A stretch of 64,000 bases of DNA, taken from Roseateles sp. DAIF2. Its GTDB lineage: Bacteria; Pseudomonadota; Gammaproteobacteria; Burkholderiales; Burkholderiaceae_C. The first letter of the stretch is position 1, and each line of letters opens with the position of its first letter. The DNA is taken from NCBI RefSeq assembly GCF_015624425.1, contig NZ_CP049919.1:2108001-2172000 (forward strand). The letters are read 5' to 3'. A model generated the notes under the pieces. The model was not told the origin of the DNA. It made no database searches and saw only the letters and a program-made list of their open reading frames with translations. Of the stretch, positions 13,591 to 23,599 are shown in pieces. Both the position numbers and the translations under genes were made by a program.

Positions 13591-15003
13591 TCAGTGCGGC
13601 GGCGTTGCGGATTCTGCCGCAAGACGCGGCAGGCTGAGCGTGGCGCTGAGGCCGCCGCCGGCGCGGTTGCTCAGCGCGATGCGCCCGCCATGGGCCTCGG
13701 CGATCTCGCGCGCCAGCGCCAGGCCCAGGCCGGAGCCGCTGCGCTTGGTCGAATAAAAGGGCAGGAGGGCCTGGCCCAGCACGGTCTCGCTCATGCCGGG
13801 GCCGCGGTCCAGCACCTCCAGGCGCAAGTCCTGACCCTGCTGGTGGATGCGTAGCTCGATCGCCGCCGGGTCGCCGCCGGACTCATGGGCGTTCTTCAGC
13901 AGGTTGATCAGCGCCTGCTCGATCTGGGCAGCGTCGAAGCGGCCGGCCTCGCGCGGCGTCTCGCCCTGCAGCGTGAAGGCGTAATGCGCCCCCAGCCGCT
14001 CCAGGAAGGCCGGCCAGTCCACCTCGGCCGGGCGCGGCGCCGGCAGCTTGGCGAACTGCGCATAGGCCGACAGGAAGGCATGCAGATGCGCGGCGCGCTC
14101 GCCGATGCTGGCGAACACCCGCGGCAGGCGTTCCAGATGCTCGGCCCCGCCGCGCCGCGCCAGCTCGGCGCCGCTGTGCGCCAGCGAGGAGATCGGCGCC
14201 AGCGAGTTGTTCAGCTCATGGCTGATCACGCGGATCACGCGCTTCCAGCTCGCCACCTCCTGGCGCGACAGCTCGCGCGTCATGCGGCGCAGCAGGCGCA
14301 GCCGGTGCGGCCGGCCCTGCAGGCGGAACTGGCGCTGCGAGAGATGGAAGCGCTCCTCGGCGCCGTCCAGCTCCAGGCTGAACAGGCCGTCCTCGCTGGC
14401 CTGCAGCGCCTCGCGCAGCGGCGCCGGTGCGGCGGCCAGCAGCGCGGCGAAGTCCTCGCCCTGCAGGCTGCGGCCGGCGGCCAGCAGCTGGCGCGCGGCG
14501 ATATTGGCATAGACCACATGCTCGCCGGCATCGGTCAGCACCAGCGCCACCGGCGTGTTCTGCACCACCGTGTCCAGCAGCAGCTCGCGCTGTGCCAGAT
14601 GCTGGCGCTGCTCGCGCAGGGCCTGGCCCAGCTCGCTGTGCAGTCGCATCAGCGCGCGCATCTCGGCGCTGGCCTCGGGCGCATCGGCGGCGATCGAGCT
14701 GCCGAACTCGCCGTCGCGGTAGCTCAGCACCGCGCCCTGCAGCGCGCGCAGCAGGCGGGTCAGCGGCGCGCTCAGGTGCCCGGCCAGCCCCCAGGCCAGC
14801 GGCAGCAGCAGCAGCGCGCTCAGCGCCAGCGCGGCCGGGCCCCAGGGCGCGAGCGCCGGCAGGCCCATCAGCGCCAGCAGCCGCGGCAGCGGCCAGACGG
14901 TCACGCCGGCATGCAGCAGCAGGGTGGCCGCGCCCATCGCGGCCAGGCCCAGGGTCAGGCCTTGCCGATGCGACAGCGGGCGGCGGTCCGGGCGGGGCGC
15001 CAC
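13591..15003 (-). CDS. NtrY-like sensor histidine kinase of the efflux operon
   Basis: The 470-residue inner-membrane kinase has two helices (about 15-40 and 50-75), a HAMP-like linker, a PAS-like segment (LLDTVVQNTPVALVLTDAGEHVVYAN, about 143-170), and an H-box VISHELNNSLAPISSLAHS with the phosphoacceptor His. The N-box is LINLLKNAHES; G boxes are DRGPGMSE and GSGLGLALAREIAEAHGG. The NELNNSLAPI-type H-box is the NtrY/NtrB pattern that pairs with sigma-54 activators. Such an activator ends three bases upstream. It presumably senses the pump's substrate or envelope stress. Confidence 0.92.
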   Translation of the reverse strand: MAPRPDRRPLSHRQGLTLGLAAMGAATLLLHAGVTVWPLPRLLALMGLPALAPWGPAALALSALLLLPLAWGLAGHLSAPLTRLLRALQGAVLSYRDGEFGSSIAADAPEASAEMRALMRLHSELGQALREQRQHLAQRELLLDTVVQNTPVALVLTDAGEHVVYANIAARQLLAAGRSLQGEDFAALLAAAPAPLREALQASEDGLFSLELDGAEERFHLSQRQFRLQGRPHRLRLLRRMTRELSRQEVASWKRVIRVISHELNNSLAPISSLAHSGAELARRGGAEHLERLPRVFASIGERAAHLHAFLSAYAQFAKLPAPRPAEVDWPAFLERLGAHYAFTLQGETPREAGRFDAAQIEQALINLLKNAHESGGDPAAIELRIHQQGQDLRLEVLDRGPGMSETVLGQALLPFYSTKRSGSGLGLALAREIAEAHGGRIALSNRAGGGLSATLSLPRLAAESATPPH

Positions 15004-15005
15004 GC

Positions 15006-16349
15006 TCAGGCCTCGTCGAGGCGGTAGCGTTCGATGCGCCGGTACAGGGCCTGGCGCGACAGGCCCAGGGCCTGGGCCGCGCGGCTGACCACGCCGCCGG
15101 CCTCGGCCAGCGCGGCGGCGACCGTCTCGCGGCTCGGCTCGTCGAGGTTGCGCAGGGCCGCGGCGGCCAGCGTGGCCGCCGGCAGCGCCAGCAGCTCGGC
15201 GGTGATCGGCGCGCCGCCGGACAGCAGGGCGGCGCGTTCGATCGCGTTCTTCAGCTCGCGCACATTGCCCGGCCAGCCATGGGCCAGCAGCGCGGCGCGG
15301 GCGCCCTCGCTGAGCGGGGCGCGGCCGGCCAGGAAATGCTCGGCCAGCGGCAGGATGTCGTCGGGCCGCTCGGCCAGGCCCGGCAGCGCGACCTCGATCA
15401 CATTGAGCCGGTAGTAGAGATCCTCGCGGAAGGTGCCGGCCCGGACCATCGTGCGCAGATCGGCGTTGGTCGCGCTGAGCACGCGCACCTTCACCTCGCG
15501 CGTGCGGCTCGAGCCCAGGCGCTCGAAGCGGCCGGTCTCCAGCACGCGCAGCAGCTTGACCTGGCCGGCCAGCGGCAGGTTGCCGATCTCGTCGAGGAAC
15601 AGGGTGCCGCCGTCGGCCGCCTCGAAGCGGCCCTCGCGGGCGCGGGTGGAACCGGTGTAGGCGCCGCTCTCGCTGCCGAACAGCTCGGCCTCGATCAGCT
15701 CGCCGGGCAGGGCGCCGCAGTTGACCGCGATGAAGGGGCCGCGCTGCACCGCCGAGTTCGCATGCACGATCGCGGCGATGCGCTCCTTGCCGCTGCCGTT
15801 GGGGCCGGTGATCAGCACCGGCGCGCTGGCGCGCGCGACCTGACAGGCCAGCTCCAGGCAGCGCAGCAGCGCGTCCGAGGCATGGACCAGGCCGTCGAGC
15901 CGGTACTGCTGGGCCAGCGCCTGCTGGCGGCGCCGGCGCTCGCGCCGGCCCTGGTGCAGCGCGCGGTTGCTCTCGGCCAGCTCCAGCAGGTTCTCGACCG
16001 TGGCCAGCAGCTTGGCGTCGTCCCAGGGCTTGGCCAGGTAGTCGGCGGCGCCGGCCTTGATCAGGGCCACCGCGCTTTCCAGATGGGTCCAGGCGGTCAG
16101 CAGGATCACCGGCAGGTCCGGCTGCTGCGCGCGGATCGCGCGGAACAGCGCCACCCCTTCGTCGCCCGAGGTGGTGTCGGCGCTGAAGTTCATGTCCTGG
16201 ATCACCAGGTCCACCGGCTCGCGCGCCAGCAGGGCCAGGCCTTGCGCCGGGTCCAGCGCCACCAGCGGGCGGATCTCCTGCAGCGAAAGCAGCAGGGAGA
16301 GGGCCTCACCCACCCCGGGGTTGTCGTCGATGATCAGGACCGTGCGCAT
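15006..16349 (-). CDS. NtrC-family sigma-54-dependent response regulator
   Basis: The 447-residue protein has a receiver domain (D8, D9, phosphoacceptor D52, K near LAKPWDD). The AAA+ domain has Walker A GPNGSGKE, a sigma-54 contact loop GAYTGS in place of the canonical GAFTGA, Walker [11 protein letters not shown], and LYYRLNV. A Fis-type HTH lies at the C-terminus ([20 protein letters not shown]). It should activate sigma-54 RNA polymerase after phosphorylation by the adjacent kinase. The best target in the window is the head of its own operon, where a sigma-54 promoter and palindromic sites lie (22266-22415). It follows the last permease by 31 bases. Confidence 0.93.
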
Positions 16350-22371: not shown

Positions 22372-22381
22372 GCGGCGGACG

Positions 22382-23599
22382 CTATAAGAGCTCGGGATCG
22401 GACAGCGTCTGTCCGGGCAGGCAGATGCGCAGCCGGGCGCCGCCCTCGCTGCGGTTGTGGGCCGAGAGCTGGCCGCCATGGGTGGTGCAGATCGCCGCGG
22501 CGATCGCCAGGCCCAGGCCGGCGCCGCCGGCATGGCGCGAGCGCGAATGCTCGGCGCGCCAGAAGCGGTCGCTGACGCGGTCCAGATGCTCGGGGGCAAA
22601 ACCCGGCCCCCGGTCGTCGGCCACCAGCACCAGGTCGTCCTCCTGCAGCCAGGCGCGCAGCACCAGGCTGCCGCCGGTGCTGGCATAGCGCATCGCGTTG
22701 TCGATCAGGATCGAGATCACCTGGCCCAGGCGGTCGCGGTCGGCGCTGATGCGCAGCGCGCCGTCGAGCTGCAGGCTGATCTCCATGCCATGCTCCCTCA
22801 GCGCCGGCAGCACCCAGGCGATGCGCTCCTCCAGCAGCAGGCGCAGCGGGAAGCGGCTGGGCTTGAGCGCCAGCTGGCCGGCGCCGGCCATCGAGAGCAG
22901 GTAGACATCGTCGACCAGGTGGTTGAGCTGGTCGAGCTGGCGCATGATCAGCGCCAGATTGCCGGCGTCGCAGCCGAACACGCCGTCGATCAGGCCCTGC
23001 AGCCGGCCCTTGGCGGCCGTCAGCGGCGTGCGCAGCTCATGCGCGATCACGGCGCTGGATTCCTGCAGCTCGCGCTCGTAGCGCTCCAGCTGGGCCGCCA
23101 TGCGGTTGAAGTCCAGGGTCAGGTGTTGCAGCGCGCTGGGAATGTTCGGCACCAGCTGGGCGCGCGAGGAAAAACGGCCGCGCGCGATCTCGCCGGCGGC
23201 CTCGGCCACCACGCCGAGCTGGCGCGACAGGCGCAGCGACACCCACAGGCCGCCGGCGATGATCATCGGCAGCGCGACCAGGATCAGGCCGGCGAAGAAC
23301 AGCAGGTCGGCGCGTATCACCTCCTTGCTGAAGTACTCGCCGTAGAGGTACTCGCCATAGATCTGGCGCAGGCGCTGGCGGTTGCTGCCCGGATCCTCCT
23401 CCAGCGCCTGCAGCTCCAGGCGCACCGGCTCGGGGATGGCGGCGCGCAGCTTGGCGTCCCACCAGGCATGGCGATACCACATGCCGCCGCTGACCAGCAG
23501 CAGCGCGGCGAGCGCCAGCGAGATCATGCGCAGGCTGATCCAGCGCCACAGCTTGACCGCCGCATGGCGACGGCTTCCCCCGGCAGTCGCCGTCGTCAT
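22382..23599 (-). CDS. Sensor histidine kinase (OmpR-partner type)
   Basis: The 405-residue inner-membrane kinase has two helices (about 20-42 and 98-120) flanking a short periplasmic sensor (about 43-97), HAMP (SRQLGVVAEAAGEIARGRFSSR), H-box VIAHELRTPLTAAKGRL, N-box ISILIDNAMRYAS, and G boxes DRGPGFAP and AGLGLAIAAAICTTHGG. It follows its response regulator by two bases. Its 3' end contains the palindrome at 22399-22415. The target is probably the divergent MipA/oxoamine-synthase operon or itself; this is inferred from location only. Confidence 0.9.
   Translation of the reverse strand: MTTATAGGSRRHAAVKLWRWISLRMISLALAALLLVSGGMWYRHAWWDAKLRAAIPEPVRLELQALEEDPGSNRQRLRQIYGEYLYGEYFSKEVIRADLLFFAGLILVALPMIIAGGLWVSLRLSRQLGVVAEAAGEIARGRFSSRAQLVPNIPSALQHLTLDFNRMAAQLERYERELQESSAVIAHELRTPLTAAKGRLQGLIDGVFGCDAGNLALIMRQLDQLNHLVDDVYLLSMAGAGQLALKPSRFPLRLLLEERIAWVLPALREHGMEISLQLDGALRISADRDRLGQVISILIDNAMRYASTGGSLVLRAWLQEDDLVLVADDRGPGFAPEHLDRVSDRFWRAEHSRSRHAGGAGLGLAIAAAICTTHGGQLSAHNRSEGGARLRICLPGQTLSDPELL
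22399..22415. promoter_or_regulatory. Third palindrome of the TGTCCG cluster
   Basis: CGGACAG-CGT-CTGTCCG has perfect 7-bp arms and lies inside the 3' end of the kinase gene, about 120-150 bp upstream of the sigma-54 promoter. There is no T-run, so it is more likely a protein-binding site than a terminator. The half-site CTGTCCG is shared with 22348-22371. Confidence 0.55.

Follow-up and report, generated by a model that had tools for sequence, protein, structure and literature searches.

In MacAB-TolC systems, an adaptor, a permease of the MacB_PCD/FtsX fold, and a TolC channel are encoded together. In the Gram-positive BceAB-BceRS modules for bacitracin, the kinase BceS has 2 helices and lacks a sensor domain. 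An FtsX-type transporter, BceAB, is combined there with BceS and with a response regulator that increases transporter levels, and BceS is driven by BceAB (PMC12070737 and PMC6978683, in the portions available). A 2025 survey (PMC12316311) reports, in the portions examined, that sigma-54 promoters are enriched before COG0577 FtsX-type ABC permeases in gamma-Proteobacteria, Opitutia, and Bacteroidia and claims the first evidence for this link; the connection between sigma-54 and FtsX-type permeases is already published there. Francke et al. 2011 (PMC3162934) tied sigma-54 to the cell exterior, and no word beginning with ABC, FtsX, or efflux turned up in the part of its text that was searched. 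Here, we analyzed a stretch of 64,000 nucleotides from Roseateles sp. DAIF2 (contig NZ_CP049919.1, positions 2,108,001 to 2,172,000; hereafter, the window) and identified 7 closely spaced minus-strand genes, from 22253 down to 13591, encoding a periplasmic adaptor, an ABC ATPase, a TolC-family channel, permease 1, permease 2, an activator, and a kinase.

We consider it highly likely, judging from sequence comparison, that these genes form a self-contained sigma-54-dependent export module with its own kinase and activator. The circuit is very probably real because its control switch is conserved in related bacteria. The gene order and strand from adaptor to kinase are as the initial annotation, made from the letters of the window, had described them, as judged by open reading frames (ORFs) and domain matches.

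Promoter and palindrome at the operon head

A -24/-12 element, AGGCACGAGGCTTGC, with 1 mismatch to the sigma-54 consensus was identified on the minus strand at 22267-22281, which agrees with the earlier call of such a promoter at the operon head and is backed by conservation in relatives. Upstream of it lies a perfect, inward-facing palindrome, TGTCCGCGGACA (22348-22359), the candidate enhancer and proposed activator site, with an imperfect tight site beside it, TGTCCGGACG (22361-22370), that is recognizable in the close relatives L021 and L023. An outward-facing pair, GGACA-N5-TGTCC (22400-22414), falls within the kinase gene upstream, at its 3' end. All 3 sites that had been described as built from CTGTCCG half-sites exist, but they are not equivalent: only TGTCCGCGGACA is widely conserved, the geometry of the outward-facing pair was not seen in 9 related operons, and other relatives have additional TGTCC half-sites at varying places.

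Taken alone, the sigma-54 motif proves nothing, with 3 matches at no more than 1 mismatch in the 64-kb window against 6.39 expected from shuffles, and this absence of enrichment is what would favor reading the promoter and palindromes as chance matches in GC-rich DNA. Comparison across genomes lifts the promoter above chance: conservation in related operons and co-occurrence with the kinase and adaptor contradict a chance origin, which we regard as extremely improbable and dismiss because of that conservation, the window by itself being insufficient.

The comparison was based on a set of 10 operons, the window included, that were picked by permease 2 and not by promoter. Permease 2 was identified at E < 1e-30 in 9 of 120 genomes (own included), and the contig "Burkholderiales bacterium C2," with a permease identity of 83%, was added, giving 9 operons besides the window. 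All 10 had an exact TGTCCGCGGACA upstream of the adaptor together with a -24/-12 element, without mismatch in 5 and with 1 mismatch in the other 5. Flanking genes were common only within 2 groups, the window with L021 and L023 and L022 with L024.

We then scanned 399 genomes of the window's family for TGTCCGCGGACA followed, after 38-67 bases, by DGGCAYN5TTGC. The pattern was found in 36 genomes (own included), once per genome, and the reversed control gave 0 matches; the adaptor was directly downstream in all 30 loci fetched of the 36, the window among them. A kinase profile at E < 1e-100 matched 40 of the 399 genomes, including all 36 with the pattern, so the 359 genomes without a kinase match are all without the pattern. 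The kinase genomes outside the pattern comprised G160, with a one-base variant palindrome and a perfect promoter, G379, with a stretched palindrome and a one-mismatch promoter, G369, with an exact palindrome and a perfect promoter at a spacing of only 45 bp, and G390, where the locus is interrupted by a contig end. Among the best 120 of at least 7999 kinase homologues, those with names belonged mostly to Roseateles and Paucibacter.

The exact 12-base TGTCCGCGGACA has one copy in the window and one in the 6.01-Mb genome. The genome-wide palindrome search that the initial annotation had proposed yielded 12 forward matches with at most 1 mismatch (the exact one included) against 23 in the control, and no wider regulon was found; with the other spacing, TGTCCGNNCGGACA, the search was uninformative (159 matches per strand vs. 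513 in the control). The genome has 2 matches to the sigma-54 DNA-binding domain, L039 (5619213) and L040 (3331169). About 5 kb from L040, there is an NtrC-type paralogue (L002).

Spacing, leader, and more distant members

From palindrome start to -24 start, the window measures 78 bp, and the 30 family promoters fall at 55-56, 67-69, or 77-78 bp, in a search that allowed only 50-79 bp. Distant members showed 64-66 or 77 bp, and G369 had 45 bp. The steps of about 1 helical turn suggest helical phasing of the predicted site and promoter; a test of helical phase gave P of about 0.009-0.013 on 18 gaps, which is a weak test with 4 gap classes set post hoc, and it counted L153 (a one-base variant core) and omitted L174, which fits (65 bp).

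Between palindrome and promoter, we searched for YAANNNNTTGA[AT], which we take to be the consensus of integration host factor (IHF). It was identified in 24 of the 30 spacers, though not in that of the window, and lay 41 or 30-31 bp away from the -24; 22 spacers had the stricter TTGAT form. The expected number was 0.02, a figure taken from the flanking DNA of these loci, which is largely coding, so that it is low for intergenic DNA. The element is nearly an inverted repeat (CAAGT..TTG), so another protein may be possible there. In the window, we found a degenerate IHF-like site, AATCAAGGGTGCG (22310-22322, plus strand).

Transcripts from sigma-54 promoters begin about 12 bases past the C of the -12 element. 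The predicted start in the window is about 2 bases before the adaptor ATG, leaving a leader of about 2 bases. In 12 of the 30 promoters, the distance from the -12 C to the adaptor start was 11-13 bases (L054 by eye), 2 further promoters (L073 and L074) had an alternative in-frame ATG at 13, and the remaining 16 had the conserved adaptor start at 31 bases or more, with nearer in-frame starts in 3 of these (TTG at 30 in L064, ATG at 26 in L079, and TTG at 10 in L082). Counted as predicted starts 0-2 bases before the adaptor start codon, the group comprises the window, L053-L056, L059, L068-L074, L078, L155, and L171 (L054, L155, and L171 by eye). These 2 modes of distance suggest that near-leaderless starts may be tolerated or favored.

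Beyond the family, an adaptor profile matched 10 of 369 genomes of the class (own included). Among the loci from this search, 5 with an adjoining kinase carry a sigma-54 element and TGTCC sites, and 3 have the exact palindrome. The pumps of the kinase-less genomes G612 and G584, and a second pump copy in G810 with no kinase beside it, had neither palindrome nor sigma-54 element. An activator profile matched 14 of 299 genomes drawn from the phylum (own included), all 14 in the window's class; the number of the 299 outside that class is not given. In 13 of these 14, permeases immediately precede the activator, at no more than about 0.6 kb; in G610, the closest permease in the stretches that were read is some 3.2 kb away from the activator. 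The view that joining a two-permease pump to a sigma-54 circuit is unusual needs correction, since the arrangement recurs, with the activator in those 14 genomes and beside permeases in the 13 read through, and the general link was published in 2025 (PMC12316311, in the portions examined). The adaptor was in view in 8 of the 9 new loci from the activator search, and 4 of these 8 keep an element with 0-1 mismatches that includes the -12 GC. In L179 and L180, a short open frame starts within 200 bp upstream of the adaptor, past the promoter region, and, by eye, encodes a small hydrophobic one-helix peptide; it is possible that this is a small membrane partner or a leader peptide.

Several observations weigh against a conserved sigma-54 switch or narrow its reach. 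The mismatch of the window promoter is in its -24, and IHF bending in the window is uncertain because only the AATCAA (TTGATT) half of the IHF-like site is kept and the other half is lost. A sigma-70 scan of 13000-24700 found no sigma-70-like promoter, so none for the regulator genes, and no terminator was found in the same interval, including before the operon, leaving read-through from the upstream kinase gene possible. G001, of the same genus as the window, is without the system, and related genomes are not independent, so that the counts overstate the number of events. Among distant loci, the canonical -12 GC is missing from G688 and G783, although kinase, half-sites, and a -24 are present in both; the L175 promoter has 1 mismatch that removes the last C; L177 and L178 have 2 mismatches each; and L180 had no sigma-54 element match by the rule used. 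The exact palindrome was present in only 3 of the 10 non-own loci of the class-wide adaptor search and in 3 of the 8 distant promoters, with a one-base variant in L174. The link weakens with distance in these comparisons, and not every member can be claimed.

Pump genes, kinase, and signal input

The adaptor (20970-22253, minus strand, as are all genes of the operon) is of the RND_mfp/HlyD type, begins MIRDTSAQD with a conserved N-terminus, and scored 123.4 bits against TIGR01730 (cut-off 94.9). The ATPase (20221-20958) is MacB/LolD/DarD-like, matches PF00005, and is an ORF separate from both permeases. The TolC-family outer membrane channel (18945-20300) scored 291.4 bits against TIGR01844 (cut-off 225.15), with a true start that is likely closer to 20240, as judged by eye. 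Permease 1 (17619-18932) and permease 2 (16381-17619) each have MacB_PCD and FtsX domains and MacB chains as top PDB matches, and the ATG of permease 2 overlaps the stop codon of permease 1. Most operons have 1 permease pair, L025, L121, and L153 have 2, L113 and L154 have 3 as far as seen, and L172 has 4; at most 1 ATPase was seen in operons with extra pairs, and the varying number suggests permease duplication for new substrates. The TolC gene is inside most operons read from the window's family, and no match to the window TolC was found in operons L111-L120, L155, and L173-L180 (mostly more distant), which may borrow a channel encoded elsewhere.

The pump may export an endogenous product (a lipid, lipoprotein, secreted peptide, or metabolite) instead of serving defense or stress relief, a reading to which we give tentative weight, below an even chance. 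Pumps of the MacB and DarBCD types serve both purposes, and the top NCBIfam model for the ATPase is that of the darobactin exporter, DarD, at 249.5 bits, under the cut-off of 375. Two results speak against it, namely, that no biosynthetic partner was seen to travel with the operon in the flank comparison, and that the operon has an accessory distribution (9 of 120 relatives).

The activator (15006-16349) is a sigma-54 enhancer-binding NtrC-type response regulator with a receiver (PF00072, 72.7 bits) containing the phosphorylatable Asp, an AAA+ domain (PF00158, 218.3 bits) with a GAFTGA-type loop, and a Fis-type helix-turn-helix (PF02954, 40.5 bits), which are the domains of the NtrC group. Receiver residues D52 and K107 are invariant in the activators of 9 of 9 operons, and the loop reads GAYTGS in the window and GA[FY]TG[AS] in all 9. 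Conservation supports the reading that this activator would drive the -24/-12 promoter from a distant site.

The histidine kinase (13591-15003, H-box SHELNN) has, by hydropathy, 2 hydrophobic transmembrane (TM) helices, and about 20 residues separate them in the window. Both helices were likewise seen in 24 of 25 scanned kinases, with loops of 6-28 residues, and in 7 of another 8 kinases, the loops measured 6-31 residues. No periplasmic sensor domain was found in the close and distant kinases scanned, and the predicted layout is that of intramembrane sensing. The name "NtrY-like" in the initial annotation proves to be a label by similarity only: NtrY kinases have an extended periplasmic region, the loop here is short, and no NtrY model was among the best 25 of 68 NCBIfam matches.

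What the kinase reads can be explained in 2 ways. It may sense directly, through a cytoplasmic ligand in the PAS-like region or through membrane disorder, independently of the pump, for which we see close to an even chance. A weak PAS_8 match lies within a strongly conserved block, and the layout also fits direct membrane sensing; the match, however, stays just under its cut-off (20.3 vs. 21.8 bits), and direct sensing leaves unexplained that no kinase was seen in the absence of a pump, whereas G612 and G584 have pumps and no kinase. Alternatively, and as a refinement of activation from within the membrane, the kinase may read the state of the permease pair and not the substrate, a possibility that we take seriously at somewhat under even. 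BceS has the same 2 helices and no sensor domain. Here, too, the TM helices and short loop come without an extracytoplasmic domain, the TM region varies across distant members while the cytoplasmic part is conserved, the pump is present in every kinase genome that could be read, and BceAB-BceS offers the precedent (PMC6978683 and PMC12070737, in the portions available). Co-occurrence and co-transcription, however, also fit ordinary regulation, the regulator genes are away from the pump in 5 genomes of genus g31, and the PLP motif of the loop, which is invariant in 9 close kinases and missing from g31 and distant kinases, could itself sense. The permeases are also MacB-type, with a weak match to BceB (21.9 bits), and the regulator is not OmpR-type.

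Autoregulation is likely in the window because the regulator genes follow the pump genes and only small gaps separate them. In the 5 g31 genomes, the sole kinase found is far from the pump promoter, at a distance of 51 kb in G032 and of 28 kb in G205 and G286, or sits on a different contig (G353 and G413), and the pump retains its promoter; in G286, the one of the 5 examined for this, no TGTCC site was found within 300 bp upstream of the activator. The positive loop that had been proposed is thus plausible in the window but not a conserved necessity, since the g31 regulators sit apart from a pump that keeps its promoter. Sigma-54 promoters do not fire unless their activator is present, so the circuit would still require some basal supply of it.

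A further pair of regulators, with an OmpR-type regulator and a BaeS/AdeS-like kinase (22382-24426), is encoded on the same strand 128 bp from the operon. This pair, or read-through from it, might drive the operon, as no terminator was found between them and the top NCBIfam models for the pair (AdeR, BaeS, and AdeS, all under cut-off) are efflux regulators. We regard this as very unlikely: the pair was not found in the 3.7-4.4 kb upstream of 9 related operons, which retain the sigma-54 elements, and beyond the window, it left only one trace, a partial match to the receiver (34%) in L022 that lies downstream of the operon there. The OmpR-type pair as the main control route was set aside because it was not found upstream of these 9 operons.

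We also examined the neighboring genes. The OmpR-type pair is divergent from a gene for a MipA-family outer membrane protein (24501-25316; together 22382-25316), and these are likely a separate regulator-target pair. Two overlapping genes at 25339-27727, one for an aminotransferase I/II (by eye, oxoamine-synthase-like) and one GNAT/FemAB-like, look like a small biosynthetic pair. On the other side, the kinase gene is followed, on its own strand, by genes for a hydrolase and a GNAT acetyltransferase (11474-13392), as it is in L021 (13874-15754), and this pair had no match in the flanks of the other 8 loci.

For the sigma-54 module, we propose the following course of events. The two-helix kinase would be activated from within the membrane or the cytoplasm and, in view of the conserved receiver and H-box, would phosphorylate the NtrC-type activator. 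The activator would then bind TGTCCGCGGACA and neighboring half-sites 78 bp upstream of the -24, a step that conservation strongly supports, and a loop would bring it to sigma-54 RNA polymerase, with an IHF-like bend between them in most relatives. Transcription of the whole operon would give more pump and, in the window, more of its own regulators. The pump would be a MacB-family machine of separate ATPase and permeases that presumably moves a periplasmic or membrane-bound amphipathic substrate through adaptor and TolC.

Comparison with known systems

The operon resembles MacAB-TolC in encoding an adaptor, permeases of the MacB fold, and TolC side by side. It differs from that system, where MacB is one fused ATPase-permease chain, in that its ATPase and 2 permeases are separate, and the equivalog cut-offs of that system were missed by the adaptor (MacA, 46 of 342 bits) and the ATPase (MacB, 224.3 of 966). 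For the DarBCD darobactin exporter, DarD is the top NCBIfam model for the ATPase and DarC ranks third for the adaptor, and the equivalog cut-offs were again missed (DarD 249.5 of 375, DarC 75.6 of 450 for the adaptor, and DarB 24.2 of 700 for permease 2). The DarB model describes one double-length permease (777 positions), unlike the 2 permeases here. As for sigma-54, the portions examined of PMC12316311 give the permease link neither an enhancer site nor a spacing rule, and neither a kinase type nor an operon, and we found no title or abstract matching the specific module (activator site, spacing, kinase layout, and distribution) in the literature searched, with subscription papers mostly outside it.

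Set against BceAB-BceRS, the operon shares the pairing of an FtsX-type transporter with a response regulator and with a kinase that has 2 TM helices and a short loop, by hydropathy only; it has neither a BceB-type permease (21.9 bits) nor an OmpR-type regulator. Its pump is instead tripartite, includes TolC, and has permeases of the MacB type, and its regulator is an NtrC-type sigma-54 activator. By sequence, MacB-type and BceB-type permeases are distant relatives, and the transporter is possibly required for kinase signaling, as in Bce modules. We tentatively suggest, as a proposal with a better chance of failing than of holding, that the operon is a Gram-negative, sigma-54-wired, tripartite counterpart of Bce, in which the pump would be the sensor, the intramembrane kinase would read the transport state, and a helically phased enhancer-loop promoter would answer only on export need, with a recurrent leaderless sigma-54 transcript (predicted at 12-14 of the 30 promoters).

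The activator, its proposed site, the promoter, and the target come together in one compact recurring circuit, in which sigma-54 activator specificity is directly testable. This would also supply a concrete mechanism for the link of sigma-54 with FtsX-type permeases in PMC12316311, as far as its available portions describe it. Should the kinase read the pump, need-based flux sensing, known from the Bce systems of Gram-positive bacteria, would reach into Gram-negative bacteria by way of another regulator class.

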